DNA of 64,000 bases from Sulfurimonas sp. HSL-3221 (GTDB lineage Bacteria; Campylobacterota; Campylobacteria; Campylobacterales; Sulfurimonadaceae). A program made the translations under genes and the position numbers. Positions within the stretch are counted from its first letter, which is position 1. Every line of letters begins with the position of its first letter. Where the stretch lies: the NCBI RefSeq assembly GCF_021044585.1, contig NZ_CP087998.1, positions 1,922,001-1,986,000 of the forward strand, read 5' to 3'. Under the pieces are notes generated by a model, which ran no database searches, had not been told where the DNA came from, and saw only the letters and a program-made list of their open reading frames with translations. This document shows, in pieces, positions 31,617-48,014 of the stretch.

Positions 31617-34600
31617 TTAGTAGGCGATCTTGAACTGGAGGCTGAACTCCTGCCCCGGCGTCGTAGAGGCGGTCTTAAGATTCCCCTGCTTGTACTCCAG
31701 CTTACTGTCGAGCAGGTTTTTGGCCTTGAACTTGACCGAATAGATCAAGTCGCTGTCTTTGAAGAAGTAGTTGTTCAGTTTCCACTGGGTGACGAAATCG
31801 AGCTTCGCAAAAGGCTGCTCGTAGACGTCTTTGTTCTTTTCCGTCCCCAGCGAGACGATGCGCTCACCGATCTGGTTGAACAGGAAAAGCGCACTGTCGC
31901 CGGTATCCGCGTTATCGTAACCGAATGTCAGGTTCACGACATAGGGCGACTGCCCCTGCATCGCACGCTTCTTGGAGGTCAGCGTATTGATGTAACTGTA
32001 AAACGGATCGGTCGCATCGGTTTTGGGGAGCTTGATCTCTGATTGGATCAGCGCCACGTTCGTCGCGAAAAGCAGGTTGCTCAGCGAATCGCTGACGAAA
32101 CCGAACCGTTTGCGCAGGTCGACCTCGACGCCGTAACTCGTCGCCGAGTCGGCGTTGATGTACGTCTCCAGGAAGGTATTGTCCTGGGAGTCATCGCGCT
32201 TGATGACCTTTTCGATCGGGTTGTCGAACATCTTCGCAAAGAGCGCCATCGAGAACATCTCGTCCGCTTCCATATACCACTCGTACTTGAGGTCGTAGTG
32301 GTCGATATAGGTCGCGTTCAGGCCCGGGTTACCGAAGACGATGTTCTCCGTCACCGGGTCCTTGTAACGGCTGTTACTGAACTCCCGGAAGTCCGGACGG
32401 CTGATGCTCTTGGCGTAGGCAAAGCGCAGCTGCATCGCGTCGTTGTCGAAACGGTAGGTTGCCCCCAGGCTCGGGAAAAGGTCCGAGGTCTCCAGCGGCG
32501 CGTAGCTTGCCGCCGCGTCAAAGAGCTGCTGCGACGAATCCTCCTGGCGGACCGAGGCGACGATGTCGAAGTCGTGCGTGACAGAGAGCAGCTGCTTCAG
32601 GTAGAAGGCCGTCACGTCCTGGGTCGCCCGGTAGGAGTCCGTCAGGCGGTAGGAGGCGGAGAAATCCAGGTCGTTGGCGTACTTCTGGTAGATCGTGTCC
32701 ATATCTTCGGGCATATCGCTGAAGTTGGAGCTGAGCATCTTGAAGCGGCGGCTGTCGAAGTCGCGCTCTTTCGAATAGACGAACACCCCCGCCTTCGTAT
32801 AGTTCTCGTTCCCGTTAAACTCGAACGGCAGCGTGAAGTCGCCGCGGACATTGTCGACCGTATCGTTGAGGATAAAGTAGTAGTACCAGTTTTTGCGGTC
32901 CCAGTTGAGCCCGGAGGTCTGGTGCAGATAGTTGTACTCCACCGTCCCCGGCTCGTCGCGGTACGCTTCCGCCGTCTCGTAGGCCCAGTCGATTTTGAGG
33001 TTGTCAAAATAGCCGTCCGTGCCGCTGCCGAACCGCAGTTCGTTGCTGCCGCTGATCTGGTGCATCGTCAGGCCCGTCTCGACATACTCGTAGTAGGTCT
33101 TTTCGCGGTCCTCGCTGCTTCCGGTGTAATCGACGGAGGAGAGCGTCGTTTTGTCGCTGGTCTGCATCGTCGCAAAAAAGGTGTACTTGAACTTCTGGTT
33201 CTCCAGGTAGTTCACGCCGAGATTGACCATCCCTGAGAGCTCTTCTTTGAAGGTCGTCACATCCGCCGTCGTATGGTTGTCGTGGTAGATCGAACCCGTA
33301 TTGATATCGTAGAAGAACTTGTTGTACTCGGTCTTGTCGTTATCGGACGTATTCTTGTAATAGACCGTCCCGGAGGCACCGACGGAGAGGTCGTCGTTGA
33401 AGGCATAGCTCTTCCCGGCCGCGACTTCAAGCTTGCCGCCCGGCGGCAGTGTCGTCGATTCACGGTTCAGCGAACGGCTGTGCAGCACATCCTGCGTCAC
33501 GGCCCAGCCACCGACGTTGTTTCCGCCGCTCAGCGCGCTGGAGGGGAGCGGAACGCTGTTGTCGCCGTTGGTCGTCGCCTTGTTGCCCGTATTGCTGTTC
33601 ATGATCGCTTCGACGGCGATAGAGGCGTACCCTTCGTCGCCCGCCGGGATATCCTTGCTCTTGATCAGGACCGTACCGCCGCCGAAAGAGGCCGGCAGAT
33701 CCCCGGTATAGGACTTCTGGATCGTGATGCTCTCGACGACGGAGGTCGGGAAGATATCAAGCGGGACGACCCGCTTCGTCGGTTCCGGCGACGGCACGTG
33801 CAGATCATTGAGCATGACCGTCGAGTAGCGGTCCCCGAGTCCGCGGACATAGACATATTTCCCGCCGACGATCGTGATACCGCTGACACGTTTCAGGGCT
33901 GCGGCGACACTGCTGTCACCGCTTTTGGAAAACTGTTCGGAGCCCAGGACGTTCCCGACCGCGTCGCTGTTGCGCTCTTCGGTGATCGCGGCGGCGACCG
34001 AACCTTCGATATGCGGCGCCAGGACGATGAACTCTTCCAGCTCCATCGCCGCGGGACTCAGCTCGACCGTGCGGCTGACCATCTCTTTGGGCAGTACCGT
34101 CACCTTGACGTTCTGGGAGGAGAAGCTCGTGTGGATGATGGAGAGTGTCCGGTTCCCCTCCGGCAGGTCGATGACGACATGGCCCTGTGCATCGGAGACG
34201 GCATTGATTTTGATCCCCGGTACGAAGACGCGGGCGCCTACGACCGGTTTCTCATCTTCGGATGAGAGCAGCGTCAGTGCCACGGTCCCGTTGACCTTGA
34301 CCACGTCCTGCTTCGCATCGCTCTGCGTCACATTCCCTTCCGGCGCTTCGACATCCGCAAACTGCAGCGTTTTGTCCGATTTCAGCGACAGAATGATCTG
34401 GGTCTGTTTGTCGGAGGCGATGACAAAATTCTTCTTGACGAAGGCCTGCGGCGCGCCGTTCTCCGTTGCCAGAAGCTGCAGCTGGTAGTTCCCCTCCGGG
34501 AGGGTCGTTCCCAGATACCCCTGGGCATCCGTCGTAAACGTCATCGTTTCAGGCTTGGCCGCTGCCGCTTCTGCCGCGGAAAGGTTCATGATCAAGACCT

Positions 34601-34709
34601 CCTGCGTCGGCAGCGGTTTGCCGTCTTTCAGCACGTAAAGCGCCAGTTCGCCGCCTGCGGCGAAGAGGCTCATTGTCAGCAGTGAAACCAGAAAAAGTAT
34701 ACGCGTCAT
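31617..34709 (-). CDS. TonB-dependent outer-membrane receptor with regulatory-like N-terminal domains
   Basis: A 1030-residue receptor. A signal peptide (TRILFLVSLLTMSLFAAG) is followed by two beta-sandwich carboxypeptidase-regulatory-like domains (about 20-115 and 140-220). The plug (about 240-345) has KRVSGITIVGGKYVYVRGLG and LPASFGGGTVLIKSKD, and the beta barrel ends in FSLQFKIAY, with the terminal aromatic typical of barrels. It imports a substrate using TonB energy. It is the last gene of an operon of DUF3450, TtpC-like, ExbB, ExbD, TonB and TPR genes whose promoter carries a PhoB-like site (39635-39677), so a phosphorus-containing substrate is inferred. The start overlaps the TPR stop (ATGA). 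Confidence 0.9.
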   Translation of the reverse strand: MTRILFLVSLLTMSLFAAGGELALYVLKDGKPLPTQEVLIMNLSAAEAAAAKPETMTFTTDAQGYLGTTLPEGNYQLQLLATENGAPQAFVKKNFVIASDKQTQIILSLKSDKTLQFADVEAPEGNVTQSDAKQDVVKVNGTVALTLLSSEDEKPVVGARVFVPGIKINAVSDAQGHVVIDLPEGNRTLSIIHTSFSSQNVKVTVLPKEMVSRTVELSPAAMELEEFIVLAPHIEGSVAAAITEERNSDAVGNVLGSEQFSKSGDSSVAAALKRVSGITIVGGKYVYVRGLGDRYSTVMLNDLHVPSPEPTKRVVPLDIFPTSVVESITIQKSYTGDLPASFGGGTVLIKSKDIPAGDEGYASIAVEAIMNSNTGNKATTNGDNSVPLPSSALSGGNNVGGWAVTQDVLHSRSLNRESTTLPPGGKLEVAAGKSYAFNDDLSVGASGTVYYKNTSDNDKTEYNKFFYDINTGSIYHDNHTTADVTTFKEELSGMVNLGVNYLENQKFKYTFFATMQTSDKTTLSSVDYTGSSEDREKTYYEYVETGLTMHQISGSNELRFGSGTDGYFDNLKIDWAYETAEAYRDEPGTVEYNYLHQTSGLNWDRKNWYYYFILNDTVDNVRGDFTLPFEFNGNENYTKAGVFVYSKERDFDSRRFKMLSSNFSDMPEDMDTIYQKYANDLDFSASYRLTDSYRATQDVTAFYLKQLLSVTHDFDIVASVRQEDSSQQLFDAAASYAPLETSDLFPSLGATYRFDNDAMQLRFAYAKSISRPDFREFSNSRYKDPVTENIVFGNPGLNATYIDHYDLKYEWYMEADEMFSMALFAKMFDNPIEKVIKRDDSQDNTFLETYINADSATSYGVEVDLRKRFGFVSDSLSNLLFATNVALIQSEIKLPKTDATDPFYSYINTLTSKKRAMQGQSPYVVNLTFGYDNADTGDSALFLFNQIGERIVSLGTEKNKDVYEQPFAKLDFVTQWKLNNYFFKDSDLIYSVKFKAKNLLDSKLEYKQGNLKTASTTPGQEFSLQFKIAY

Positions 34710-35857
34710 TGCTGGCACTCCCATATATTATTTTTGCATTTTTCCATCTTCTTGCGCAGTTCGACGGCCTTGGCGAAGAGCTCAGGCTGAGAGAGCGTCT
34801 CGAGCAGCGCTTCCGTCTGCTCGAACTCCCCCTCCATGTAGTAGGCGTACGCCAATGCGTAACGCATGCCCTCCTCTTCCATCAGGCCGCTGCGCGCCAT
34901 CGCCTTGCGGGTGACGATGATACGTTCATAGTCCCCGTACTCCAGGAAGATCGCGATGCGCTGCTTGTACTTCTCTTTCGTGTCGAGCATCTGCGTGTTC
35001 TTGAGCAGCGCCATCACGTAGTCGCGGGCGCGGCGGTACATCTCCGCCGACTCGTTGGTGTACTTCCCGTCCTCGATGGAGGCCTCGTTAAAGAGCTCCG
35101 CCGCGGCACCGATCATCTCTTTGTCGATGTAAAGGTGCGCCAGCATCACCGTCACTTTGGCGCTGCTCGGGTAGCGCAGGTTCGCCTCCTCGCCCAGTTC
35201 GATCGCCTTCTCCGTCTGGCCGCTCTGGCGCAGGGCGTTGATGAAGTTGATCAGGATCGTCTCGTTCGCCTTCGCGTTTTTCAAGTAGACCTGCGCATCA
35301 TCAAGCGCCGCCTGGAAAAGCCCCAGGGAGACGAGGTAGTAGAAGCGCTGTTTGTAGGCGTCCCAATACGCCGGGAAACGACTGTTCACATCCCGCAGGA
35401 CCGCCAGCGCCGCGTCCTTGTCGCCTTCGCGCCAGAAACACTCCGCCTTGAGGCCGAAGAGTTTCGGGTTCTGCGCCATAAGGTCGGGGACCTTGTCCAG
35501 CGCCGCGATACACCCTTTGTACTCTTTCAGCTTGAAGCTGTTCTGGGCGATGTAGAGGTAGAGCGGTTTGGACGCGTTCGTATCCTCGTTCAGTTCGATA
35601 GACTTGTAAAAGTGGACGTTGGCCTCTTTGTAAAAGCTCTTTTTCGTCTCTACCAGCCCCTTGAGCATGTAATAGCGCGGCAGGTCGAGCTCTGTGTCGT
35701 TGAGATCGACCATGTTCAGCGCATCGTTGGCACGCTCGACGTGACCGTCGCGCAGCATCATCGCGCCCAGTTCGACATAGTCGACATCATCGGTTTTTGC
35801 CGCCAGCTGGACGGAGAGAGCCCCGACCAATGCCGCTATAATCCAAAAACGTTTCAT
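34706..35857 (-). CDS. Periplasmic TPR protein of the second TonB system
   Basis: A 383-residue protein with signal peptide (RFWIIAALVGALSVQLAA) and about eight to nine tetratricopeptide repeats, for instance PRYYMLKGLVETKKSFYKEA and PSSAKVTVMLAHLYIDKEM. A C-terminal Cys pair lies in KKMEKCKNNIWECQQ. TPR proteins accompany TonB2/TtpC-type systems in Vibrio and other Gammaproteobacteria, where they are thought to organise the periplasmic assembly. It lies between tonB and the receptor, 12 bp downstream of tonB, and overlaps the receptor ATG. Confidence 0.85.
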   Translation of the reverse strand: MKRFWIIAALVGALSVQLAAKTDDVDYVELGAMMLRDGHVERANDALNMVDLNDTELDLPRYYMLKGLVETKKSFYKEANVHFYKSIELNEDTNASKPLYLYIAQNSFKLKEYKGCIAALDKVPDLMAQNPKLFGLKAECFWREGDKDAALAVLRDVNSRFPAYWDAYKQRFYYLVSLGLFQAALDDAQVYLKNAKANETILINFINALRQSGQTEKAIELGEEANLRYPSSAKVTVMLAHLYIDKEMIGAAAELFNEASIEDGKYTNESAEMYRRARDYVMALLKNTQMLDTKEKYKQRIAIFLEYGDYERIIVTRKAMARSGLMEEEGMRYALAYAYYMEGEFEQTEALLETLSQPELFAKAVELRKKMEKCKNNIWECQQ

Positions 35858-35869
35858 CGGTTCTCCTCC

Positions 35870-36508
35870 TTAATTGAGGTCGAAGCGGATCTTCTGCTTC
35901 GCCCATACTTTGACCGGCTGACCCTGGTACTGCGCCGGCTTGAATTCCCAGGTTTTGACGGCCGCAACGGCGACATCGTCAAAGGTGTCGGCCGGATCGC
36001 TCTCAAGCACTTTGACCTTTTCGACACGCCCCTGCTTGTCGATAAGCAGGTTCATCAGGACATACCCCGTGACGCCCATTTTGCGCGCCTTCTTCGGATA
36101 CTCGATCGGCGTGCGGCGGGAGGGCTGCGGCGCCTGGTCGACCGTATCGTCGGTCATGACCATATCGTTGCCGACGTCGCCCAGCAGCGCATCGTCGCTG
36201 AGCAGATCATCGGCCTGGAAAGCTTCCAGGCCCGTGTCGAGGCCCGAGAGCTGCGAACTGAGATTCGGCGTCGGCGCGCTGCGCTTCGGCTTCACCTTTT
36301 TCGGCTTCGGCTTCGGTTTAGGCTTGGGCTTCGGTTTGGGCTTGGCAACCTGCTGCATATCGAACTGCGCCGAAGCCATCTTCTTCTTCGGCGGCTCCGT
36401 CCACCCCTCGTTGTTCATCTCGATCACGACGATAAAGACGAAAAAGAGGCCGAAGACACTCCACAGGAGGGCCAGCGCATGTTTTTTCAGCGGGGAAGCG
36501 TTGCGCAC
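35870..36508 (-). CDS. tonB: TonB energy transducer (second set)
   Basis: A 212-residue TonB2-like protein. It has an N-terminal helix (ALALLWSVFGLFFVFIVVIEM, about 10-30) and a spacer with alternating Lys-Pro (AKPKPKPKPKPKPKPKKVKP). The TonB C-terminal domain (about 120-212) includes EYPKKARKMGVTGYVLMNLL and QPVKVWAKQKIRFDLN. The start is GTG at 36508, right after the ExbD stop. It is shorter in the spacer than the first TonB, in line with TonB2-type proteins that need an extra partner (the TtpC-like protein). It energises the receptor at 31617. Confidence 0.92.
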   Translation of the reverse strand: MRNASPLKKHALALLWSVFGLFFVFIVVIEMNNEGWTEPPKKKMASAQFDMQQVAKPKPKPKPKPKPKPKKVKPKRSAPTPNLSSQLSGLDTGLEAFQADDLLSDDALLGDVGNDMVMTDDTVDQAPQPSRRTPIEYPKKARKMGVTGYVLMNLLIDKQGRVEKVKVLESDPADTFDDVAVAAVKTWEFKPAQYQGQPVKVWAKQKIRFDLN

Positions 36509-36509
36509 C

Positions 36510-36914
36510 TTATCCGACCTCTTTGTTCGTGGCGACCGCAACATCCTTCGCGCCGGAGAGGCGGCACTGGTCGACGACTTCGATCAGTTTCTCCACCGCG
36601 ATCGTGTCATCGGTCACGACCAGGACGGACTTCTCCGTCGAGGTGCGCAGCATGTCGCGCAGTTTGCTCTGCAACGCCCAGACCTTGATGGGCTGGTTGT
36701 CGATGTAGGCCTGCGCCTGGTTGTCGAGGTAGACCTTGATCACCTTGCTCGATGCCCGCGTCGCCGAAGAGGCTCCCGGACGTTCAAGGTCGAGCTTCAT
36801 GTCTTTGACAAAGGTCGTACTGACCATGAAAAAGATCAGCAGAATAAATACCATGTCGATCAGCGGCGAAATATCGACGGCCTGATCCAGCTCTTTTTTC
36901 TGTCTAAAACGCAT
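36510..36914 (-). CDS. exbD: ExbD-type protein (second set)
   Basis: A 134-residue ExbD: N-terminal MRFRQKKELDQAVDISPLID with the membrane Asp near residue 20, one helix (MVFILLIFFMVSTTFV), and a periplasmic domain ending GAKDVAVATNKEVG. It is positioned directly between exbB (0-bp gap) and tonB (1 bp). With ExbB and the TtpC-like protein it harvests proton-motive force for the second TonB system. Confidence 0.93.
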   Translation of the reverse strand: MRFRQKKELDQAVDISPLIDMVFILLIFFMVSTTFVKDMKLDLERPGASSATRASSKVIKVYLDNQAQAYIDNQPIKVWALQSKLRDMLRTSTEKSVLVVTDDTIAVEKLIEVVDQCRLSGAKDVAVATNKEVG

Positions 36915-37529
36915 TTACTTTCCTTCTTCTTCCGAACAGACGATGTCCTTGATCTGTTCCAGTTCGAGTTCCATGATCTTCGAGCGGCGGTCGATCAGAC
37001 GGCCGACGACCAGACCCGGTACGGCGACGACGAGCCCCAGCTGCGTCGTAAACAGCGCCTGGGAGATCCCCCCGGCGATCCCGCCGCCCTGGCTGTAGAG
37101 CGTCATGCTCCCGAGCGAATCGAAGGTCTCGATCATCCCGGCTACCGTTCCCAGCAGACCGATCAGCGGTGAGACCATGACGATGGTGTTGACGGTTTTG
37201 CGGTACTTTTTGAGCTCCTGATAATAGGGAAAGAACGCATCCTCGATCAGTTCGCGCCCGATCGTGCCGCGGTACCCCTCGTTGACGATCTGCAGGGCGT
37301 CAACGATCGCGCCGTCGATGAGCCCCCGGGGCACTTCGCGCTTCCCGGAGTCGAACTTGCGGATCAGAACCCGCACGCTCTTTTGCGACCCGCGCTTGAT
37401 TGCGTGGAAGCGGTAGCCCAGCGCGTACCACAAAACGATGACCAGCACGAACAGCGGCCACATGACAAAGCCGCCGCTCTGCATGTAGACCAGAAACTGA
37501 TCGAAAAGGTTATGGAGTGCCGGTTGCAT
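36915..37529 (-). CDS. exbB: ExbB-type proton channel protein (second set)
   Basis: A 204-residue ExbB/TolQ with three membrane helices: GGFVMWPLFVLVIVLWYALGY (about 19-39), TIVMVSPLIGLLGTVAGMIE (about 120-139) and TTQLGLVVAVPGLVVGRLID (about 160-179). It overlaps the TtpC-like stop by 1 bp and abuts exbD. A classical ExbB and a longer TtpC-like homologue both occur in the operon, as in Vibrio TonB2 systems. Confidence 0.93.
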   Translation of the reverse strand: MQPALHNLFDQFLVYMQSGGFVMWPLFVLVIVLWYALGYRFHAIKRGSQKSVRVLIRKFDSGKREVPRGLIDGAIVDALQIVNEGYRGTIGRELIEDAFFPYYQELKKYRKTVNTIVMVSPLIGLLGTVAGMIETFDSLGSMTLYSQGGGIAGGISQALFTTQLGLVVAVPGLVVGRLIDRRSKIMELELEQIKDIVCSEEEGK

Positions 37530-38842
37530 TATTTCTGCTTGTTATACTCGTTGATCAGGTGCAGCGCGGACTGCTCCATACCGTCTTTGATGCGCTCCGC
37601 CCAGCCGTTGAGCATGTTGCCCAGCAGCAGCAGCGGGATCGCCACGATCAGACCCAGTTCCGTTGTGACCAGTGCGATCGAGATCCCGCCGGAGAGCAGT
37701 TTCGGATCGCCCGTACCGAACTCGGTGATGATGTCAAAGGTCGCGATCATACCGGTCACGGTACCCAGCAGACCCAGCAGCGGCGCGACGGCGGCGACGA
37801 CCATGATGGCCGAGCCGTAACGGTCGAGACGTTCGCTCTCGTGCATGATCGCCTCGGCAACGATATCTTCGACGTGTTCGCGGTCGCGGTCGAGGTTACG
37901 CACCGTCGCCTTCATAACGCGGGCCGCCGCCCCTTTGCGGGTTTTGAGGAAGTTCAGGGTCGCTTCAACGCCCTTGGACTGCAGCTCGACCAGCGTCTCT
38001 TTCGCTACCGGCAGCGTCTTGGACGCGGCACCGCTGAGGAAGAAACCGCGCAGGACGACAAGCAGGAGTGCGAACAGGCCCATCACGACGATGACCCAGC
38101 CGATGATACCGCCGGACTCAATGACGTCCATAACGCCCTTGTCCGCCTTGTCCTCAACCTCTTTGGAGACGTTCTCATAGACAAAGATCTCCAGGGATGC
38201 CGGCATCTGACCTGCAGCCAGCGCCGTTGCCGTCGCCGCGGACGCCGGTGCGTCCCACAGTTTCAGCTTATCGCCGCCGGCCGGGACCAGGACACCTGAA
38301 ACGCCTTCGGCAACGCCGTAGGTCGCGATGTTACCGACCTTGACGAGCTTGCCTTTCTGCTCCGTACCGTCTTTGAGGTAGAAGCTCCCCTCGGTGACGT
38401 TGACAGAAGAGAGATCACGGCTGAGCTTCAGCGTCTCTGCGAAGAGCTGGTTCAGTGTCGCCGGGTAATCGTTCTTGTCGATGGCAAGCTTGATGCCGTA
38501 CGGTGCGAGGGAAGATTGTCCCTGCAGGGCGACGGATTCAAGCAGCGCCGTATCGTCGCTAATGTTCTCCGCGTTCTGCTGTGAGCGGAAAAGCTGTTCG
38601 CCGAGGCGGTCGGATGTCTGGGTCTTGACCAGAACATCATTCTGCAGAGATGCGATCTCTTTTTTCGCAGAAGAGATACGTGCCGCATCCTCTTTTTTCA
38701 CCTGGGAAAGGCGCTGCTGCAGCATCTCTTTCTGGGCTTTCAGGAACGCAAACTCTTTGGCATAGGCGCGCTGCAGTTCTGTCTCTGTCGCGGCGGAGAG
38801 GGAAAGTACCGCCATCATCAGGATAAGGACAATACGTTTCAT
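37529..38842 (-). CDS. TtpC-like MotA/TolQ/ExbB protein with periplasmic coiled-coil extension
   Basis: The 437 residues start with a signal peptide (KRIVLILMMAVLSLSAA). A periplasmic coiled coil follows (about 20-80, Gln/Lys/Glu-rich), then a beta-rich section (about 110-235), the first membrane helix (IIGWVIVVMGLFALLLVVL near 250), and an ExbB core with two helices (MVVAAVAPLLGLLGTVTGM and LGLIVAIPLLLLGNML). The periplasmic extension of more than 200 residues separates it from normal ExbB. In Vibrio, TtpC proteins of this build are needed for TonB2-dependent uptake. The gene overlaps its neighbours by 1 bp on each side. Confidence 0.9.
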   Translation of the reverse strand: MKRIVLILMMAVLSLSAATETELQRAYAKEFAFLKAQKEMLQQRLSQVKKEDAARISSAKKEIASLQNDVLVKTQTSDRLGEQLFRSQQNAENISDDTALLESVALQGQSSLAPYGIKLAIDKNDYPATLNQLFAETLKLSRDLSSVNVTEGSFYLKDGTEQKGKLVKVGNIATYGVAEGVSGVLVPAGGDKLKLWDAPASAATATALAAGQMPASLEIFVYENVSKEVEDKADKGVMDVIESGGIIGWVIVVMGLFALLLVVLRGFFLSGAASKTLPVAKETLVELQSKGVEATLNFLKTRKGAAARVMKATVRNLDRDREHVEDIVAEAIMHESERLDRYGSAIMVVAAVAPLLGLLGTVTGMIATFDIITEFGTGDPKLLSGGISIALVTTELGLIVAIPLLLLGNMLNGWAERIKDGMEQSALHLINEYNKQK

Positions 38843-39606
38843 TATTTCACCTCCGTCGTCGCAATGGCATTCGGCAGGGTAAAGTAGCCGGTGCGGATCT
38901 GTTTGTGCATCGCGTCAAAGAGCGCGATAATCTGCTCTTGCTCCGCCTTGTTCACGGACTCTTTGTAGTACCAGCCGCTGGCGTCCTTCGCCACATAGCC
39001 GACACGATCGTCTGGCGTCATGAAGTACATCATGACGGTGCCCAGGCGCGCGATCTCGGCAAGACGGTCTTCGCCGTCAAGCTTGATCGTCTGTTTGAAA
39101 AGGCCGTTCTCCTTGGTCATGCGCACTTCGTCCGCGTAACTGTTCCAGACCTGCGCCAGCGCTTTCTGCGGCGTGATAAGCCCCTCGTTCATCTGCGACT
39201 CGATACGTGCCACATCGTCAAGGCGCTCCGCTGTTTTAAAAGGAAGTTCGGAAGCGATCTGCGTTTTGAGCTCGGCGATGGCGGCAACAACGACGGGCTT
39301 GATCCCCTCGCTGTTTTTGCTCGCCGCGGCGATCTGCTGACGGACCTTGGCGATCTCCTGCTCGATCTGCTTGATCTTCAGGTTCTCGCGTCCGATCGTC
39401 GCATCAAGTTCGTTCTTTTCGATGACGAGCGAACGCATTGTCGCTTTCGTGTCATCTTTTTCTTCCTGAATCTGCGTGTTCAGTTGTTCGACTTCGGCGC
39501 GCAGCTTCATCAGCGATGACGCCATGTTTTCTTCGGTACTTGCTGCGAGTGTTGTCGCTGCAATGAGCGAACCGGCCAGCCAGAGTTTTATCGTATTCGG
39601 TACCAT
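38842..39606 (-). CDS. DUF3450 family periplasmic coiled-coil protein
   Basis: A 254-residue protein with signal peptide (IKLWLAGSLIAATTLAAS), a long coiled coil (about 30-95) and a C-terminal globular part (AEIARLGTVMMYFMTPDDR, YVAKDASGWYYKES). This matches DUF3450, which almost always precedes TtpC-type genes in TonB2 operons. It is first in the seven-gene operon and its leader carries the PhoB-like box at 39635-39677. The start is the ATG at 39606. The role is inferred to be a periplasmic scaffold for the TonB complex. Confidence 0.9.
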   Translation of the reverse strand: MVPNTIKLWLAGSLIAATTLAASTEENMASSLMKLRAEVEQLNTQIQEEKDDTKATMRSLVIEKNELDATIGRENLKIKQIEQEIAKVRQQIAAASKNSEGIKPVVVAAIAELKTQIASELPFKTAERLDDVARIESQMNEGLITPQKALAQVWNSYADEVRMTKENGLFKQTIKLDGEDRLAEIARLGTVMMYFMTPDDRVGYVAKDASGWYYKESVNKAEQEQIIALFDAMHKQIRTGYFTLPNAIATTEVK

Positions 39607-39634
39607 ACATACCCCACATAAAAAAGATAGGCGA

Positions 39635-39677
39635 AGGGTACAGTTTTTGTGTTACGCTACCGTCACCGAAAGATTAC
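39635..39677 (-). promoter_or_regulatory. PhoB-like box with -10 for the TonB receptor operon
   Basis: On the minus strand, three pentamers GTAAT, GTGAC and GTAAC are repeated with 11-bp period (39677 down to 39651). After exactly 10 nt comes TACCCT (39640-39635). The ATG of the DUF3450 gene follows at 39606. The layout matches the other seven boxes in the window. Confidence 0.72.
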
Positions 39678-39713
39678 ATAACGGAAACATTTTTGGGTGT
39701 CAAAGGGGAGGAA

Positions 39714-39748: not shown

Positions 39749-42220
39749 TTACTGTTCCAGCGGATCGTTGGTGCCGGCTTTACCTTTCCAGACGTCAGCT
39801 TCGGTCACACCGAGGCATGATGTGTTGTCATCGACGTTGAGGTAGGCTGCGTCAACCGCTGCAAGACCTGTCGTACCGACGTTTGTTACAAAGTAGGCGT
39901 ATGCCGTGTTGGCCGTTGCGTCCTTTGAGTTCGTGTCAGAGTACGTCGTTGCGTCTGTCAGTGCCACGTTCGTGTCTTTGAAACAGACGTTGCTCGTGAT
40001 ATGCTTCGCACCTGTCAGATAAGCATCCTCGCCGCGGAAGAAGATCAGCTCAGTGTCAACCGTTTTGTCGCTGACGAACTTGACGTTGTCCCAAATGAAG
40101 CCGGCATCGTACTTGTTGTAGAAACCGCCGCCTTTGATGTACGCTGTATAGTTGATGATAGTCGGCTGTGTCGCGTTCGTGTCATCCGTTGTGATCGTGT
40201 TGTTATCGTTACCGAACTCCATACCTGAAGAGTCGTGGTTGTTCGTGCTGTCGACAAAGACCTGCTTGACCAGGACGTTCTGGATCGTACCGCGGTAACC
40301 GAGGTCCGTGTCGACAGAGTCGTCCTGGGCGTTGTAGACATAGAGACCGTTGATATCGACTGTACCACCCCAGATCTCCAGACCGTCATCCAGACCGCCG
40401 ATGATCGCAATATGATTGAGGATCGTACCCGAACCGACACCGGCCAGGGAGAGACCGTTGAGCTCTTTGTCTTTCTCGACTTCGTAACCGCTGTGCTTGA
40501 CAGCAACATACTCCAGGTGACCGGAAGACTGTGTGTTGTCACAAGCGACCGTTACACCGCCGTCACAACCGAAGGCGACCGTTTCGTCCGCTTCGTAGTG
40601 TGCGACACCGTAGTGTGTGTAAGCGTTACCGGCAAGGATAAGACCACCCCATTCGCCCGCAGCGTTGTCATGGGAGTTGCCGTCGACATCCTTCTTGGAG
40701 GTGAAGACGATCGGCTCAGCCTGCGTACCGATGGCGATCATCTGCGCGCCCGGCTCGACGACCATGAAAGAGTTCGGCGTAACACCGGCCAATGTCGTAC
40801 CCGCAGGGATCGTCAGCACCGCCGGTGCTTTGACGTTAACCTTGCCGTCGATTGCATATTTGACTGTTTTGTCAAGCGTCATGTCGCTTGTGATCTCGCT
40901 CGGAAGCGCCGTATAGATAACCGGCGGAGTCTCCAGCGGATCCAGAGAGCCTTCAGAACCTTTCCAGATTGTCGCTTCATCGGCACCCGTACAGACCGTA
41001 TCCATTGTCGTCGTGTTCGCGTCAACATAGATCGTGCCGGCACCCGCATAGAGCTTGTTCGTTACAAAGTATGCATAGGCAGTATCTGCCGTCGCATCTT
41101 TGGAGTTGAGGTTTGTATACGTGCTGTTGTCATCCAGTGTGAGCGCCGTATCTTTGAAACAGACCGGACCGTCGATGTGTTTTGCACCCGTCGTATAAGC
41201 ATCCTGGCCACGGAAGTGAACCTGCGCTTCGTCCGCCGTCTTGTCGCTGATGAACTTGACGTTGTTCCATTTGAAACCGGCGTCATACTTGTTGTAGAAA
41301 CCGCCGCCTTTGACGTAAGCCGTATAGTTGATGATGTTCGGCTGTGTCGCATTTGAATCGTCTGTCACGATCGTGTTGTTATCGTTACCGAACTCCATAC
41401 CTGCAGAGTCGTGGTCGTTCGTGCTGTCGACGTTGACCTGCTGAACGAGGACGTTCTGGATCGTACCGCGGTAGCCGAGGTCCGTGTCAACGGAGTCGTC
41501 GTTGGCGTTGTAGACATAGAGACCGTCGATATTGACCGTACCGCCCCAGATCTCCAGACCGTCATCCAGACCGCCGATGATCGCGATGTTTTTCAGGATT
41601 GTTCCCGAACCGACACCCGCGAGGGAGAGACCGTTAAGCTCTTTGTCTTTCTCGACTTCGTAACCCGTGTGGACGACACGGACATACTCGAGGTGACCGG
41701 AAGACTGCGTATTGTTACAAGGAACCGTTACGTCGTCACAACCGAAAGCAACCGTTTCGTCCGCTTCGTAGTGTGCGACACCGTAGTGTGTATAAGCGTT
41801 ACCCGCAAGGATAAGACCGCCCCATTCGCCCGCAGCGTTCTGGCTGGAGAGTCCCTGAACAAATTTCTGGGAAGTAAACGTAATCGGTGCCGCTTCCGTA
41901 CCGACAGCTTCAAGCTGGGAACCCGGCTCGACAACCATAAAGGATGCCGGAGCACAACCCGCTACCGTTGTACCGGCAGGGATCGTCAGAACAGCGTTGT
42001 TCGTAACGTTAACCTTGCCTTCCAGACCGTAGGTCAGTGCGCTGTCCAGGGTCATGTCTGCGTCGATGACGGCCGGCAGGACCACATCGATGACAGAAGC
42101 GTCACAGACGGCAGTCGTACCGCCGCCACCGCCACCGCCGCCACCGCAGCCTGTAAAGGAGAGTACTGCAGCAGCTGCTGCGCTCAGGGCAATTGTCGAA
42201 GTTTTATAAAAATTCGCCAT
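39749..42220 (-). CDS. Large surface-type lipoprotein with two near-identical domains
   Basis: An 823-residue protein with a signal peptide, lipobox FTGC (Cys near residue 25), a run of nine Gly, and two about 390-residue repeats (about 38-430 and 431-823). Each repeat has VLTIPAGTT, FMVVEPG, GEWGGLILAGNAYTHYGVAH, ELNGLSLAGVGSGTIL, IIGGLDDGLEIWGGT, SVDTDLGYRGTIQNVLV and a final WKG-DPLE. The pattern is that of a right-handed beta-helix domain. Homologues are often found with TonB receptors under phosphate control. A Pho-like box precedes it, and it sits beside the receptor operon. It likely captures a ligand at the cell surface for the receptor (inference). Confidence 0.85.
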   Translation of the reverse strand: MANFYKTSTIALSAAAAAVLSFTGCGGGGGGGGGTTAVCDASVIDVVLPAVIDADMTLDSALTYGLEGKVNVTNNAVLTIPAGTTVAGCAPASFMVVEPGSQLEAVGTEAAPITFTSQKFVQGLSSQNAAGEWGGLILAGNAYTHYGVAHYEADETVAFGCDDVTVPCNNTQSSGHLEYVRVVHTGYEVEKDKELNGLSLAGVGSGTILKNIAIIGGLDDGLEIWGGTVNIDGLYVYNANDDSVDTDLGYRGTIQNVLVQQVNVDSTNDHDSAGMEFGNDNNTIVTDDSNATQPNIINYTAYVKGGGFYNKYDAGFKWNNVKFISDKTADEAQVHFRGQDAYTTGAKHIDGPVCFKDTALTLDDNSTYTNLNSKDATADTAYAYFVTNKLYAGAGTIYVDANTTTMDTVCTGADEATIWKGSEGSLDPLETPPVIYTALPSEITSDMTLDKTVKYAIDGKVNVKAPAVLTIPAGTTLAGVTPNSFMVVEPGAQMIAIGTQAEPIVFTSKKDVDGNSHDNAAGEWGGLILAGNAYTHYGVAHYEADETVAFGCDGGVTVACDNTQSSGHLEYVAVKHSGYEVEKDKELNGLSLAGVGSGTILNHIAIIGGLDDGLEIWGGTVDINGLYVYNAQDDSVDTDLGYRGTIQNVLVKQVFVDSTNNHDSSGMEFGNDNNTITTDDTNATQPTIINYTAYIKGGGFYNKYDAGFIWDNVKFVSDKTVDTELIFFRGEDAYLTGAKHITSNVCFKDTNVALTDATTYSDTNSKDATANTAYAYFVTNVGTTGLAAVDAAYLNVDDNTSCLGVTEADVWKGKAGTNDPLEQ
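39752..42100 (-). repeat. Internal tandem duplication of 1176 bp (392 codons)
   Basis: The two halves of the lipoprotein gene align at a constant offset of 1176 bp. For example, the segment around 40281 matches that around 41457, with long stretches nearly identical at the DNA level. The N-terminal copy covers about 40927-42100 and the C-terminal copy about 39752-40926. Confidence 0.85.
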
Positions 42221-42251: not shown

Positions 42252-42283
42252 AGTGTAGGATGCTTGTGTTACGGACGCCATAC
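42252..42283 (-). promoter_or_regulatory. PhoB-like box with -10 for the duplicated lipoprotein
   Basis: On the minus strand, GTATG and GTAAC are repeated at 11 bp (42283 to 42268), then 10 nt, then TACACT (42257-42252). The first half-site is degenerate. The ATG is at 42220. Confidence 0.55.
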
Positions 42284-42322
42284 AGCAGTGAAACAGGATG
42301 ATTACAACGGATTGATCTCTCC

Positions 42323-42363
42323 GTAATATATATGTAACCCAAGCGTAATATCCTTTCTATACT
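42323..42363 (+). promoter_or_regulatory. PhoB-like box with -10 upstream of phoB1
   Basis: Three pentamers GTAAT, GTAAC and GTAAT at 11-bp period (42323-42349). Ten nt later comes TACTGT, or TATACT at 42358-42363, which is the better -10. It suggests autoregulation of phoB1. Confidence 0.7.
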
Positions 42364-42400
42364 GTTCTGACTTCAAATACTATCTATAAGGTATGCTGGT

Positions 42401-43075
42401 ATGAAAGCAACTATCGCCGTCGTCGAGGATGATACGGATCTTCTTGAACTCCTGGAGTACAGGCTGGGGAAAGAGGGCTTCGACGTTGTCGGTTTCACCA
42501 ATACGAAAAACGTGAAGCAGGTCCTGACCGAGGAACCGGTCGACCTGATCATCATGGACCGTAACCTTCCCGATGTCGAGGGGAGCGAATATATCGCGAT
42601 GCTGCGCTACCAGGGTCTGAAAACCCCGGTCATCTTTCTCTCGGCCAAAGACAGCAGTGCCCAGGTCCAGGAAGGATTCCTGCGGGGCGGTGACGACTAT
42701 ATCACCAAACCGTTTGAAATCGATGAGCTGATCCTGCGGATCAAAGCCGTGCTGCGGCGTACCCGCGGCGAAGAGGAGGAGCAGGTCGTCACCTACCGCG
42801 ACATCGAACTGCACCTGCATTCGCGCGAAGCCTTCATCAGCGGGATGCCCGTTGAACTGACCAAGCTGGAGTTCAACCTGCTGCGTACCTTCATCGAGAA
42901 CCGCACCACCGTGCTGCGGCGCGACTACCTGCTCAAAAGCGTCTGGGGGAAAAGCGACAGCTACCAGGGGCGTACGGTCAACGTCGCCATCAACCGCCTC
43001 AAAGAGAAGATCGACCCGGACAAGAGCAAAGACTACATCAAAACCGTCCGCGGCATCGGCTACATGATCCGCTAA
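42401..43075 (+). CDS. phoB: PhoB-like response regulator, first paralogue
   Basis: A 224-residue OmpR/PhoB regulator. The receiver has acidic pair VVEDDTD near residue 9, Asp in LIIMDRNLPDVEG near 53, and Lys in YITKPFEIDE near 104. The winged helix holds VELTKLEFNLLRTFIEN and VNVAINRLKEKIDPDKSK, ending TVRGIGYMIR. It is closely similar to the second PhoB at 47340-48014, most of the DNA-recognition helix being identical. It has no kinase beside it and faces the lipoprotein, sharing the promoter region. It probably arose by duplication and may be a partner to PhoR or a separate regulator. Confidence 0.9.
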   Translation: MKATIAVVEDDTDLLELLEYRLGKEGFDVVGFTNTKNVKQVLTEEPVDLIIMDRNLPDVEGSEYIAMLRYQGLKTPVIFLSAKDSSAQVQEGFLRGGDDYITKPFEIDELILRIKAVLRRTRGEEEEQVVTYRDIELHLHSREAFISGMPVELTKLEFNLLRTFIENRTTVLRRDYLLKSVWGKSDSYQGRTVNVAINRLKEKIDPDKSKDYIKTVRGIGYMIR

Positions 43076-43307: not shown

Positions 43308-44093
43308 TCAACCGAACTTGCCGCTGATGTACTCCTGGGTCAGTTTTTCCGCCGGGGTGACGAACATCTCGTCGGTCTTGTTCAGCTCGATCAGTTCGCC
43401 CAGGTACATAAAGCCCGTATAGTCGCTGACGCGGGCGGCCTGCTGCATGTTGTGGGTAACGATGATGATCGTCACGCGGTCGCGCAGCTCCATCACCAGC
43501 TTTTCGATCCCCTGGGTGGAGATGGGGTCGAGGGCCGAGGTCGGTTCGTCAAAGAGCAGGACATCCGGCTCGACGGCGATGGCGCGGGCGATGCAGAGGC
43601 GCTGCTGCTGGCCGCCGGAGAGGCCGTTCGCGTCATGCTTGAGACGGTCTTTTACCTCGTCCCAGATCGCGGCGTCGCGCAGCGCCTTCTCGACACGGTC
43701 GGCAAGTTCCGTTTTGTTTTTCAGTCCCTGCAGGCGCATGCCGTAGGCGATATTGTCGAAGATGCTCATCGGGAAAGCCGTCGGCTTCTGGAAGATCATC
43801 CCGATCTTGATACGAAGGTTGATCAGATCCTCCTTGCTCTCGACGATATTGCGCCCTTCGAACATGATCTTGCCGTCATACGCGTTCCCCGGGTAGAGGT
43901 CGTGCATCCGGTTAAAGGAGCGCAGCAGCGTCGTCTTCCCGCATCCGGAAGGTCCGATCAGGGCCGTGACTGAGTTTTTCGCGATCGGCATAGAGATGTT
44001 TTTGAGGTTCGGTGACGTGGCACCGGCATAGGTGAAACTGAAATTGTTGACTTCGATCGCCTTCTCGGACGGAATGTCGATAACGGTCGCCAT
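43308..44093 (-). CDS. pstB: Phosphate ABC transporter ATPase PstB
   Basis: A 261-residue ATPase that powers high-affinity phosphate import. Walker A is [20 protein letters not shown] near residue 43, the Q loop is [13 protein letters not shown], the signature is [16 protein letters not shown], Walker B is [13 protein letters not shown], and the switch His is in [13 protein letters not shown]. It ends YISGKFG. It follows pstA by 3 bp. The usual PstB length is about 255-260. It is encoded last in the pstCAB operon under the Pho-like box at 45847. Confidence 0.97.
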
Positions 44094-44096
44094 AGG

Positions 44097-44939
44097 CTAT
44101 CTCCCTTTTTTCTTGAGTAGGATCAGACGGCCCAGAATGTTGAGGCCGAGAATAAACATCGAGAGGATGAACGCCGCAGCCCATCCCATCTTCTGCCAGT
44201 CCTCGTAGGGGCTGGTAGCATAGTTGAACATCGTCACGGTCAGCGACGCCATCGGTTCACTGAGATCGTAGTTGAGGAAGTTGTCATTGAACGAGGTGAA
44301 GAGCAGCGGCGCCGTCTCTCCCCCCACACGGGCGATCCCCAACAGGACGCCGGTCAGCACCCCCGCCTTCGCGCCGCGGTAGACGACCTGCATGATCACC
44401 TTGTATTTGGGAGCCCCCAGTGCAAAGGCCGCTTCGCGCAGGGTCGAGGGAACAAGCTGGAGCATATCATCGGTGGTGCGCAGGATGATCGGGATCATGA
44501 TGATCGCCAGCGCGATGACGCCGGCCCAGCCGCTGAAGTGCCCCATCGGCAACACGACAATCGCGTAGACAAAGGAGCCGATAACGATACTCGGCGCACT
44601 CATCATAATGTCGGAGATATCGCGGATGACCTCGGCAAGCTTCGACTTCTGGCCGTACTCACTGAGGTAGGTCCCTGCCAGGATCCCCAGGGGCACCCCG
44701 ACGACGGTCGCAACGCCGACCAGGATGAGCTGACCGATCAGCGCCTGCCGCAGCCCGCTCTCCTCATAGCCCGGAGGGGCCCCTTCGAAGACGAAGATGT
44801 TCCAGTTGATCGCATCGATGCCGTTGGCGACGAGGACGTAGAGTATCCAGAAGAGAAACCCTATGCCCACGAGGGCCGAAAGGCTGGAGAGCCCCAGCAC
44901 GATTTTATTGATAAGCAGCCGTTTTTGAATCGCGGTCAT
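44097..44939 (-). CDS. pstA: Phosphate ABC transporter permease PstA
   Basis: A 280-residue permease with six predicted membrane helices. The first is IVLGLSSLSALVGIGFLFWIL, and the EAA-type loop is STLREAAFALGAPKYKVI near residue 190. The start ATG at 44939 overlaps the pstC stop in ATGA. The frame extends upstream to 45254, but that part lies inside pstC and is Arg-rich. PstA and PstC form the phosphate channel with PstB. Confidence 0.95.
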   Translation of the reverse strand: MTAIQKRLLINKIVLGLSSLSALVGIGFLFWILYVLVANGIDAINWNIFVFEGAPPGYEESGLRQALIGQLILVGVATVVGVPLGILAGTYLSEYGQKSKLAEVIRDISDIMMSAPSIVIGSFVYAIVVLPMGHFSGWAGVIALAIIMIPIILRTTDDMLQLVPSTLREAAFALGAPKYKVIMQVVYRGAKAGVLTGVLLGIARVGGETAPLLFTSFNDNFLNYDLSEPMASLTVTMFNYATSPYEDWQKMGWAAAFILSMFILGLNILGRLILLKKKGR

Positions 44940-45814
44940 TTTACCTTCCTTGTACGGCGCAAAAAGTAGAACTTGGACATCGCAATGATGACGAAGCTCA
45001 TCACCATCAGGATCAGCGCCAATCCGAAGAGGCTTGAGAAGTAGAGGTCCGTATCCGCCTCGGTGAATTCGTTGGCCAGGGTGACGGGAATCGACGTCGC
45101 CGGCGCGGTGATGTCGAGGGAGATCTTGTGCACGTTCCCCATGACGAAGGTGACGGCCATCGTCTCGCCGACAGCGCGCCCGAGGGCCAGGATCAGCGAG
45201 CCGATGATCCCCGCTTTCGCATAGGGGATGACGACATCCTTGATGACGTCCCACTTCGTCGCGCCGAGGGCGTAAGCCGACTCTTTGAGGATGTCGGGCG
45301 TGGTATTCATCGCGTCGCGGGTCACCGCCGCCATGAACGGCAGGATCATGATCGCGAGAATGATCCCCGCGGTGAGCATCCCAATGCCCAGACCTCCGAA
45401 AATATCACGGATAATCGGCACGAAATAGAAAAGCCCCCACATCCCGTAGATGACCGAGGGGATCGCCGCCAGCAGCTCGATGGAGACGCCGACGGGGGAT
45501 TTCAGTTTGGCCGGAGCAATCTCGCTCAGGAAGATCGCCACCCCGATGGCGACCGGCACGGCAAAAAGCATCGCCAGGAAGGTCGAGATCACCGAACCGG
45601 CGATCGCGGCGAACCCGCCGAATTTCTCCAGGTTCGGTGCCCACTTGTCCCCCAGGACGAAATCGAAGCCAAAAGCAGCGAACGCTTCGGTGGAGTGCTG
45701 GAAAAGCACGGTAAAGATCCAGGCGACGAGCAGCAGTATGGCCACGGCAATAATGCGGGTCGCGTTTGCAAACAGTTTGTCAATCAGAAGTGTCAAACTT
45801 TCTTCTCTCTTCAT
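44936..45814 (-). CDS. pstC: Phosphate ABC transporter permease PstC
   Basis: A 292-residue permease. Landmarks: a first helix (IIAVAILLLVAWIFTVLFQHS), LLAAIPSVIYGMWGLFYFVP near residue 115, and the EAA-type loop ILKESAYALGATKWDVIKDVV near 180, followed by SLILALGRAVGETMAV. It heads the pstCAB operon. A Pho-like box with -10 lies at 45847-45878, and the phoR stop lies about 30 bp further upstream, so the promoter is nested between the two units. Confidence 0.96.
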   Translation of the reverse strand: MKREESLTLLIDKLFANATRIIAVAILLLVAWIFTVLFQHSTEAFAAFGFDFVLGDKWAPNLEKFGGFAAIAGSVISTFLAMLFAVPVAIGVAIFLSEIAPAKLKSPVGVSIELLAAIPSVIYGMWGLFYFVPIIRDIFGGLGIGMLTAGIILAIMILPFMAAVTRDAMNTTPDILKESAYALGATKWDVIKDVVIPYAKAGIIGSLILALGRAVGETMAVTFVMGNVHKISLDITAPATSIPVTLANEFTEADTDLYFSSLFGLALILMVMSFVIIAMSKFYFLRRTRKVK

Positions 45815-45846: not shown

Positions 45847-45878
45847 ATGGTAAGTCACAAATGTTACAGAATAATTAC
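45847..45878 (-). promoter_or_regulatory. PhoB-like box with -10 for pstCAB
   Basis: On the minus strand, GTAAT and GTAAC at 11-bp period (45878 to 45863), 10 nt, then TACCAT (45852-45847). The ATG of pstC is at 45814. Confidence 0.72.
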
Positions 45879-45909: not shown

Positions 45910-47346
45910 TCACTCCTCCAGGGGTCCCCCCGCCGGAAGTGCGCTGTCCGTCGGCTTCTGCAGCAGGGGAGTGATGCCGAAACCAAACGAGGAGCCCTCT
46001 CCCTCCACGCTGCTGATCTGAAGTTTCGTGCCGTGCAGTGCCAGGATATAGCTGACGATGGAGAGCCCCAACCCCATCGAATTGTCCCAGGTATTCTTTT
46101 CGACGCGGTAGAACTTGCTGCTGATGCGCTCGATCTCCTTGGCGGCGATCCCGATCCCGCGGTCGTGTACCCAGAGTGTCCCCTCATTGATCTCAAGGAG
46201 CACGGCCGATTCGGAGTACTTCATGGCATTGTCAAGCAGATTGGTGACGACCAGGTCGATCATCGTGCGGTCCGCTTCGACGAAGATGGATTCACAGGAA
46301 ACCTCCAGCGTACGGTCCGTGTACTTTTTCGTAATGTTGTTCGCACACTCCGTTGCCAGATCACAGAGGTCAAACCGGCTGTATGAAGGGGCCAGGTCGT
46401 TGTTCTCGAGTTTGACGGAGAGCGACAGGCGGTCAAGCATCGTCGAGATCTTCTGGGCGTTTGCCGTGATCTTCTGCAAGAAGCGCTGGCGGATCCGGCC
46501 GTCGATCTCCGGATCGTCGTAGAGGGTCTCCGCATAGCCGACGATCGAGGCGATCGGGTTTTTGAATTCGTGGCTGATCGCGGAGAGAATATCGTTGCGC
46601 TGCTTGTTGATCAGGCGCAGACGCGCCGTGTACTTGCGCTTCTGACGCTCGCGCTTGGCCAGTTTTTTGACGAGGTTTTTGAGCAGCAGCGAGATCTGCA
46701 GGAACTCGGTGAAGTAGCGGGGTTTCACCACCGCCTTGTAGTTCTTGTCGCTGATCTCTTCGAGATAGGCCGAGAGCTGGGCGATGTCGTAACGGATCTT
46801 GCGGCTCATCCGTATGGCGAGGTAGACCACGACGAGCAGCAGCAGCCCCAGCACGGTTGCGAGCCGGAAGAGCAGCGTGTAGAAGTCGTCGAGTACCTTC
46901 TGAAGGCTGACCGCAAGACGGAGCGTATAGGTGCTGCCCTGCCAGACGATACGCTTTGCCACATAGAGAAAATCGATGCCGATCGTATGGGAGAAACGGA
47001 CGGCCTGGCCGTACTCGCCCTTGGCCGCCGCCATCACCTCTTCGCGGTTGGCGTGGTTTTCCATCTCTTCACGGTTCGCATCGCTCTCCGCCGCCACGGT
47101 GCCGTCGACGGCAATGACGGTGATACGCTTCCCGATCTGCGGCGCCGTCTCCGCAATATAGCGGTCCATGTTCGTGACATACTGCAGGGTCGACTCTATC
47201 AGTCCGATCTCCTGCTTGAGACGTACCTCGTAGTCGCTGATAACGGACTCTTTGAGGGTAAAGTAGCCCACAAAGGAGGCGATAAGCCCCATCAGCGTGA
47301 AGATGCCGAGAAATTGGAGGATAAAGGAGTGGTGGATCTTCAGCAA
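45910..47346 (-). CDS. phoR: PhoR-like phosphate sensor histidine kinase
   Basis: A 478-residue kinase with membrane helix 1 (FLGIFTLMGLIASFVGYFTL, about 13-32), a periplasmic sensor part (about 33-165), helix 2 (LATVLGLLLLVVVYLAI near 172), a HAMP-like linker and coiled coil. The HisKA site is SAISHEFKNPIASIVGY near residue 264; the ATPase has N box VTNLLDNAMKYSE, G1 VHDRGIGI and G2 SMGLGLSIVSYI. The periplasmic part is larger than in E. coli PhoR. The start is a TTG at 47346, overlapping phoB2 by 7 bp, which fixes the pair as cognate. It likely responds to PhoU and Pst status. Confidence 0.9.
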   Translation of the reverse strand: MLKIHHSFILQFLGIFTLMGLIASFVGYFTLKESVISDYEVRLKQEIGLIESTLQYVTNMDRYIAETAPQIGKRITVIAVDGTVAAESDANREEMENHANREEVMAAAKGEYGQAVRFSHTIGIDFLYVAKRIVWQGSTYTLRLAVSLQKVLDDFYTLLFRLATVLGLLLLVVVYLAIRMSRKIRYDIAQLSAYLEEISDKNYKAVVKPRYFTEFLQISLLLKNLVKKLAKRERQKRKYTARLRLINKQRNDILSAISHEFKNPIASIVGYAETLYDDPEIDGRIRQRFLQKITANAQKISTMLDRLSLSVKLENNDLAPSYSRFDLCDLATECANNITKKYTDRTLEVSCESIFVEADRTMIDLVVTNLLDNAMKYSESAVLLEINEGTLWVHDRGIGIAAKEIERISSKFYRVEKNTWDNSMGLGLSIVSYILALHGTKLQISSVEGEGSSFGFGITPLLQKPTDSALPAGGPLEE

Positions 47347-48014
47347 AGTGTGTACCCTACTCCGCGTACCGTTTTGATGTACTCTTTGCTTTTGTCAGGG
47401 TCGATCTTCTCTTTGAGGCGGTTGATGGCGACATTGACGGTGCGGTCCTGGTACACCTCATCGCCCCCCCAGACGTGCTCCAGCAGGTAATCCCGGTCGA
47501 GCACGACGTTCTGGTTTGAGATAAGCGTATGCAGCAGATCGAATTCGAGCTTGGTCAGCGCGATGGGCGTCCCCTCTATGGTCACCTCACGCGAAGCGAG
47601 GTTGAGCAGGATGTCCCGATAGGCGACGACACCTTCGGAAGGGCTGCCCTTGGTCCGGCGGAGTATCGCGTTGATGCGCAGCAGAAGCTCTTTCATATTA
47701 AAAGGCTTCGTCATATAGTCATCCCCGCCGCGCAGGAATCCCTCTTCGATCTCGCTCTCTTTGTTCTTGGCGCTGAGATAGATGACGGGGGTCTGGACCC
47801 CCTCCTTGCGCAGTGAAGCGATAAACTCGCTCCCCTCCGCCCCGGGAAGGTTCCGGTCCATGATCATCAGATCGACGGACTCCTCGTCGAGCACGCGGCG
47901 GACGTTCTTCGTGTTCAAGAAACCGATCGTCTCGAAGCCCTCTTTTTCCAGGTTGTACTCGATGAGTTCGAGCAGATCCTCTTCATCTTCAACGATGACT
48001 ATCGTCGTATGCAT
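47340..48014 (-). CDS. phoB: PhoB-like response regulator, second paralogue
   Basis: A 224-residue PhoB-type regulator, highly similar to the one at 42401-43075. Receiver: VEDEEDLLELIEYNLEKEGF near residue 8, Asp in LMIMDRNLPGAEG near 53, Lys in YMTKPFNMKE. Winged helix: ALTKLEFDLLHTLISN and VNVAINRLKEKIDPDKSK. I choose the ATG at 48014; an upstream GTG at 48026 is less likely. It is linked to phoU (19 bp upstream) and phoR (overlapping). This is the paralogue with a cognate kinase. Confidence 0.92.
   Translation of the reverse strand: MHTTIVIVEDEEDLLELIEYNLEKEGFETIGFLNTKNVRRVLDEESVDLMIMDRNLPGAEGSEFIASLRKEGVQTPVIYLSAKNKESEIEEGFLRGGDDYMTKPFNMKELLLRINAILRRTKGSPSEGVVAYRDILLNLASREVTIEGTPIALTKLEFDLLHTLISNQNVVLDRDYLLEHVWGGDEVYQDRTVNVAINRLKEKIDPDKSKEYIKTVRGVGYTLC

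Follow-up and report, generated by a model that had tools for sequence, protein, structure and literature searches.

A predicted Pho-regulated TonB system with a candidate surface lipoprotein partner beside the pst genes of Sulfurimonas and in other bacterial groups

Why does a complete set of TonB genes, ending in an outer-membrane receptor, stand beside the phosphate genes of a Sulfurimonas, and what might it carry? We addressed this question for a stretch of 64,000 nucleotides (the window) from Sulfurimonas sp. HSL-3221, contig NZ_CP087998.1, positions 1,922,001 to 1,986,000; the source genome is one contig of 2.52 Mb. The usual view is that phosphate crosses the outer membrane via porins and that organic phosphorus is first cleaved outside the cytoplasm. 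The original prediction, made from the letters of the window, was that a seven-gene operon encodes a dedicated, energised uptake system under phosphate instead of iron control. Based on the analyses below, we think it likely that the operon and a neighbouring gene specify a Pho-regulated, TonB-dependent system for uptake across the outer membrane, self-contained and partnered by a lipoprotein at the cell surface.

Open reading frames (ORFs) and Pfam profiles confirmed the order, strand and span of the seven genes, which run on the minus strand from 39606 to 31617:

38842-39606, minus strand: DUF3450 protein, TtpB homologue, 254 aa (PF11932, 3.6e-31), of the weaker-scoring DUF3450 class
37529-38842, minus strand: TtpC homologue, a long ExbB with an N-terminal extension, 437 aa (PF01618, MotA_ExbB, 4.4e-29)
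36915-37529, minus strand: ExbB, 204 aa (PF01618, 5e-22)
36510-36914, minus strand: ExbD, 134 aa (PF02472, 7e-28)
35870-36544, minus strand: TonB, 224 aa (PF03544, TonB_C, 2.7e-22)
34706-35857, minus strand: tetratricopeptide repeat (TPR) protein, 383 aa, TPR families, TtpD homologue by position (compare ttpD2 of V. vulnificus)
31617-34724, minus strand: TonB-dependent receptor (TBDR), an ORF on the scale of 1035 aa (Plug PF07715, 7e-9; CarbopepD_reg_2 PF13715, 1e-11)

The genes are tightly packed. DUF3450/TtpC and TtpC/ExbB overlap by 1 bp, ExbB and ExbD abut, and a 12-bp gap separates TonB from the TPR gene. Between longest ORFs the overlap is 35 bp for ExbD/TonB and 19 bp for TPR/TBDR, the latter shrinking to 4 bp if the next ATG is used. 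With a full energiser and a receptor encoded together, the gene content agrees with the self-contained, energised system that had been proposed. Generic sigma-70 promoter and terminator scans of the region returned no more matches than shuffled sequence. The description of the locus was correct for the seven genes but overlooked two others, a lipoprotein gene on the same strand and a divergent PhoB paralogue, each with its own Pho box:

39749-42220, minus strand: lipoprotein of 823 aa with lipobox FTGC and two related domains, beta-helix model, candidate ElpS-like family
42401-43075, plus strand: response regulator of the PhoB type, an orphan without a kinase alongside, with 66% identity to PhoB

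The question of control was approached through the promoters. Those of pst and of two nearby porin genes share the pattern GTAAYC-N5-GTAAYC, with a TACNAT hexamer beginning 15 nt past the G of the second repeat. Related boxes stand before the genes considered here:

39635-39688, minus strand: operon Pho box (GTTTCC, GTAATC, GTGACG and GTAACA at 11-bp spacing, -10 TACCCT), repeats kept in relatives
42252-42305, minus strand: lipoprotein-gene Pho box (GTAATC, GTTTCA, GTATGG and GTAACA), with -10 TACACT at the pst-type distance
42323-42365, plus strand: Pho box preceding the PhoB paralogue, from pattern matches

The operon promoter has the geometry of those of pstS, pstC and the two porins, in that TACCCT begins 15 nt past the G of its last repeat. 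The repeats, noted originally as a triple set and in fact three to four, exceed chance: the two-repeat pattern with at most 3 mismatches matches 23 times in the window versus 2.94 expected, and the maximum in 100 shuffles was 7. At no more than 1 mismatch, 8 of 17 matches in the whole 2.52-Mb genome fall within the 12 kb of this locus. In the same pattern-based genome scan, zero-mismatch boxes outside the window precede genes for a Phytase-like lipoprotein, PhoD, an Acyltransf_2+GNAT (OlsB-like) protein and one further protein whose family is unknown; on these grounds the motif can plausibly be read as marking a Pho regulon. This regulon is predicted to include lipid remodelling, the OlsB-like acyltransferase perhaps serving ornithine lipids. 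The Pho-box candidates outside the window that stand before the Phytase-like lipoprotein, PhoD, the OlsB-like acyltransferase and, in addition, a MipA-type barrel are at G000:C1:1538298, 2038229, 2506609 and 2349206 (L077, L083, L085 and L093). No match to the Fur box, for which the E. coli consensus was used, occurs in the window within 3 mismatches, and Fur control was rejected on that ground.

A search for DUF3450 in 397 genomes of the phylum found two classes, and the window belongs to the weaker-scoring one. Loci of this class were taken with 20 kb around each match, giving 20 Campylobacterota loci. All 20 have the order (lipoprotein)-DUF3450-TtpC-ExbB-ExbD-TonB-TPR-TBDR as far as their contigs reach; at L059 the lipoprotein gene comes after the receptor. 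At 15 of the 20, the stretch also contains pst genes, a PhoB-like regulator or both, so that the check proposed originally, linkage with pst/pho, came out positive and most of these operons are not remote from pho genes. When a TtpC alignment was used to scan named genomes, the clade widened to Lysobacterales, Marinicella, Methylomonas, Wenzhouxiangellaceae, Oceanospirillales, Nitrosomonas and deltaproteobacterial/myxobacterial genomes. The system is thus also present in Nitrosomonas and in gamma- and deltaproteobacteria, and the setting in Campylobacterota first given for it was too narrow. In the TtpC tree all loci and the window form one group (support 0.75), together with one additional member, in which the lipoprotein is likewise present. 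The clade comprises 53 loci, 20 from Campylobacterota and 33 further. Where enough sequence is available, the gene after TPR is the receptor in 40 of 43 loci. A member of the lipoprotein family stands nearby in 30 of the 34 loci whose sequence reaches far enough to either side (tabulated by hand). The neighbouring regulator best matches PhoB (TIGR02154) at three Nitrosomonas loci (above the cut-off in two), in Methylomonas and in one deltaproteobacterium. The regulator downstream of L119 was rejected as PhoB, being CpxR-like, and L119 counts only via its pst genes. On a Pseudoalteromonas megaplasmid (L187, NZ_CP091443.1), fhuF and a siderophore receptor are close to a TtpB-to-TtpD operon that includes both lipoprotein and receptor; because of this location, some relatives may serve iron.

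The boxes are conserved along with the genes. A weight matrix was trained on the four pst/porin sites only, and a box was called at p<=0.05 by shuffling. Of the 20 Campylobacterota loci, 13 have such a box before DUF3450; one of the 20 is cut at a contig end, and the four from the window's own genus are not mutually independent. Before internal genes of about 20 loci they were called at TtpC in 0, ExbB in 0, TBDR in 0 and TPR in 3. Among the distant loci, 16 of 28 testable ones have a Pho-like box before DUF3450, versus 3 of 39 in the other DUF3450 class (Fisher p=1.5e-5); internal genes have one in 1-2 of about 30. From these data we infer that PhoB binds the boxes, and that phosphate, not iron, probably governs the operon, as had been claimed.

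These comparisons also bear on the possibility that an ordinary iron-type TonB2 system happens to adjoin the pst genes. The six-gene core is indeed that of Vibrio TonB2. However, the Vibrio loci found belong to the other DUF3450 class, outside the window's TtpC clade, and boxes are rare in that ordinary class (before 1 of 17 DUF3450 genes by the weight matrix, and the 3/39 above) while kept in distant relatives of the window. The 17 strong-class loci lack the lipoprotein, an adjacent receptor of the operon's type and PhoB, and they were taken to rule out such adjacency. With the separate clade and the conserved receptor and lipoprotein partners, we disfavour this explanation strongly and give it very little credence.

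Within the genus the receptor falls into two parts:

33672-34724, minus strand: N-terminal part of the TBDR, which has a pair of beta-sandwich domains plus most of the plug and is kept among congeners (DNA alignment with L045/L046; AlphaFold2 model)
31617-33671, minus strand: TBDR barrel, aa ~351-1035; in congeners L045/L046 this entire segment, through to the stop codon, is a different one

Against L045 and L046, the locus has ~84-93% DNA identity except for two blocks, receptor aa ~351 to the stop codon and the mature part of the lipoprotein, aa ~31 to just beyond the stop. Conservation extends over the receptor's N-terminal periplasmic domains, most of its plug, the signal peptide and lipobox of the lipoprotein, and the remainder of the operon. 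Across 34 loci, barrel similarity tracks lipoprotein similarity given TtpC (partial r 0.87, 0/2000 permutations), and the same test for the receptor N-terminus gave a partial r of 0.33 only. The permutation test does not fully model the tree; the within-genus swap is independent of it. Two proteins in contact at the cell surface, either with one another or with a shared ligand, would be expected to show this pattern, which suggests that the pair cooperates there.

The AlphaFold2 model of the receptor (predicted local distance difference test score, pLDDT, 84) has a full plug and barrel and matches solved TBDRs (best E 3e-25). One of the two lipoprotein domains is modelled as a right-handed beta-helix, with a pLDDT of 75 overall and >90 over most of residues 1-210. 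A sequence search of solved structures returned no relative for the receptor and nothing meaningful for the lipoprotein, which has no Pfam or NCBIfam match, the SusD families PF07980 and PF14322 included. Foldseek gave it generic right-handed beta-helix matches only, none below E 0.001, so no enzymatic role can be read for it. Its homologues include one (E 9e-22) in Sphingomonas beside a TBDR and type II secretion system (T2SS) genes, in the layout lipoprotein-TBDR-gsp. A second, in Pseudoalteromonas, is encoded within an operon that has the complete TtpB-to-TtpD set and a TBDR. Homologues in beta- and gammaproteobacteria (L110, L116, L119, L122, L124, L128 and L138) share a C-terminal GAF..DWT.GWT motif; no C-terminal sorting tag was seen by eye on the non-lipoprotein homologues.

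The closest folds of the receptor are mostly siderophore and heme receptors, which brings up the main rival: Pho-induced import of a metal (Fe, Ca or other), with the receptor taking up a metal complex, since starvation raises the need for cofactors of the phosphatases PhoX and PhoD. PhoX-like and PhoD genes are present in the genome, and Vibrio TonB2 carries iron (PMC6957404). The fold ranking partly reflects library bias, however, and with a receptor only ~12% identical to solved ones it is no predictor of ligand. Together with the lack of a Fur box and the phosphate-induced TBDR/lipoprotein pairs of Caulobacter and Flavobacterium, which point to phosphorus, this leads us to regard metal import as unlikely.

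It could also be proposed that the locus helps to display, release or activate the beta-helix protein or a phosphatase, as has been suggested for Caulobacter ElpS, and that the receptor is a sensor, not an importer. ElpS is released and increases extracellular phosphatase activity (PMC2996285), and P. aeruginosa PUMA3 couples PhoB to exbB2D2-tonB4 and pdtA/pdtB (PMC4971064). The full plug and barrel of the receptor model and a conserved module without T2SS or sigma/anti-sigma genes argue otherwise, and we consider this role improbable.

The uptake system that we favour would work as follows. During phosphate starvation, PhoB or its adjacent paralogue would bind the GTNAC repeats and switch on both the lipoprotein gene and, as a separate transcription unit, the operon of seven genes. 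TtpB, TtpC, ExbB, ExbD, TonB and TtpD would form an energiser, driven by the proton-motive force, for the co-encoded receptor. The surface beta-helix lipoprotein would capture the ligand or present it to the receptor barrel in the manner of SusD or TbpB. The ligand would then enter the periplasm, where Pho-regulated phosphatases would free inorganic phosphate (Pi) for PstSCAB. No sequence evidence supports the ligands named originally (phosphate, polyphosphate or organophosphorus compounds); we infer that the ligand contains phosphorus, and it is probably a large or complexed compound. A larger ligand is weakly favoured because two Pho-box porins for free Pi belong to the same regulon.

Several observations weigh against this scheme. 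The operon's own box is degenerate, and a box went undetected in about 40% of the distant loci. The genome encodes five TonB_C proteins including that of the operon; given the other four, dedication of this TonB to the receptor is unproven. No phosphatase gene lies within the operon. The beta- and gammaproteobacterial lipoprotein homologues listed above have no lipobox, so the anchored form is not universal. Finally, in Caulobacter, TBDR CC0171, the neighbour of ElpS, is expressed alike in rich and poor media, and its deletion left ElpS production in place (PMC2996285).

The remaining features of the region place the operon in its phosphate setting:

43308-45814, minus strand: pstB, pstA and pstC, with the pstA start inside ORF 44097-45254 and a Pho box upstream of pstC at 45847-45878
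45910-48702, minus strand: phoR, phoB and phoU
48896-52997, plus strand: pstS, divergent, and two porin-like proteins, with a zero-mismatch Pho box before each

The PhoB paralogue may be a system-specific or feed-forward regulator, because its homologue directly adjoins the TBDR in many relatives. A lone TonB gene at 17191-17998 lies near polysaccharide export genes (Wzz/Wza type) and has a TTAATACTTCTGTAATAC repeat in front of it. Just upstream of other TBDR genes (G000:C1:36126-36157 and 1626130-1626161) are TAACAC/TAACCC repeats with a -10 element, a different motif at 11-bp spacing; it suggests that some of the remaining receptors answer to a further regulator of the OmpR family.

As a more tentative extension, plausible rather than probable, these loci could represent an unnamed multi-phylum phosphorus-scavenging TonB system. 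Barrel and beta-helix lipoprotein would be a cognate pair swapped as a cassette while energiser, plug, promoters and signal peptide stay, an evolutionary counterpart of SusCD whose ligands are polymers or complexes of phosphorus; ligand choice, or evasion of phages and bacteriocins, might drive the exchange. The presence of the machine in several bacterial groups suggests a widespread, uncharacterised means of phosphorus capture. If so, energised import of phosphorus ligands would be a general strategy of chemolithotrophic Campylobacterota, ammonia oxidisers and others. The many TBDRs and beta-helix lipoproteins without an assigned substrate would in part gain a role, and the genes form a defined set to test.

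How does this system compare with those already known? It had been put forward as not previously described. In open-access papers, we found none on a TtpBC-type system under Pho control with the operon's receptor and lipoprotein, so the claim holds for this combination. Novelty is limited to the combination because Pi-regulated TBDRs and a Pi-regulated TonB/ExbBD set are already known (PMC2996285, PMC11208175, PMC8115612, PMC4971064). The Pho regulon tabulated for Bacteroides fragilis also includes an ExbB-family gene (PMC3547664). Vibrio TonB2 (TtpB2-TtpC2-ExbB2-ExbD2-TonB2-TtpD2; PMC6957404) has six genes in the operon's order, but it is iron controlled through a Fur box and its operon has neither receptor nor lipoprotein, whereas the present locus has Pho boxes, a receptor gene, a lipoprotein and a TtpC of a separate clade. 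Similar, judging by its published description, is V. vulnificus TonB3, in which six TonB2-type genes share an operon with a receptor gene, are not iron regulated and serve a ligand that is unknown (PMC6957404). There the receptor comes first and control by Lrp/CRP is reported; here it comes last, behind Pho boxes.

Other systems resemble the surface pair or its regulation. In Caulobacter, ElpS (CC0170) and TBDR CC0171 beside T2SS genes (PMC2996285) combine a surface lipoprotein of Pi starvation with a TBDR, as here, and the PhoB regulon includes Pi-induced TonB receptors (PMC11208175). The ElpS/CC0171 layout is that of the Sphingomonas lipoprotein-TBDR-gsp locus, which is homologous to the window's pair; the likeness to ElpS thus runs via layout and not direct sequence. 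The Caulobacter locus is T2SS-linked with no TonB/ExbBD machine described, whereas the window has a TonB set and no gsp genes among the annotated neighbours at 17-53 kb. P. aeruginosa PUMA3 (vreAIR; PMC4971064) shares an extra PhoB-dependent TonB-ExbB-ExbD set (exbB2D2-tonB4), but it needs sigma-VreI, its VreA receptor is without a barrel, and no TtpB, TtpC or TtpD is described for it. In Flavobacterium, the phosphate utilisation systems (PUS) PusCD and Pi-induced TBDRs with pectate-lyase-like exoproteins (PMC8115612) again join a Pi-induced receptor to a surface lipoprotein. Those PUS loci encode SusD-type lipoproteins and phosphatases with no TonB set described, whereas the Sulfurimonas locus pairs its receptor with a beta-helix lipoprotein and a TonB set.

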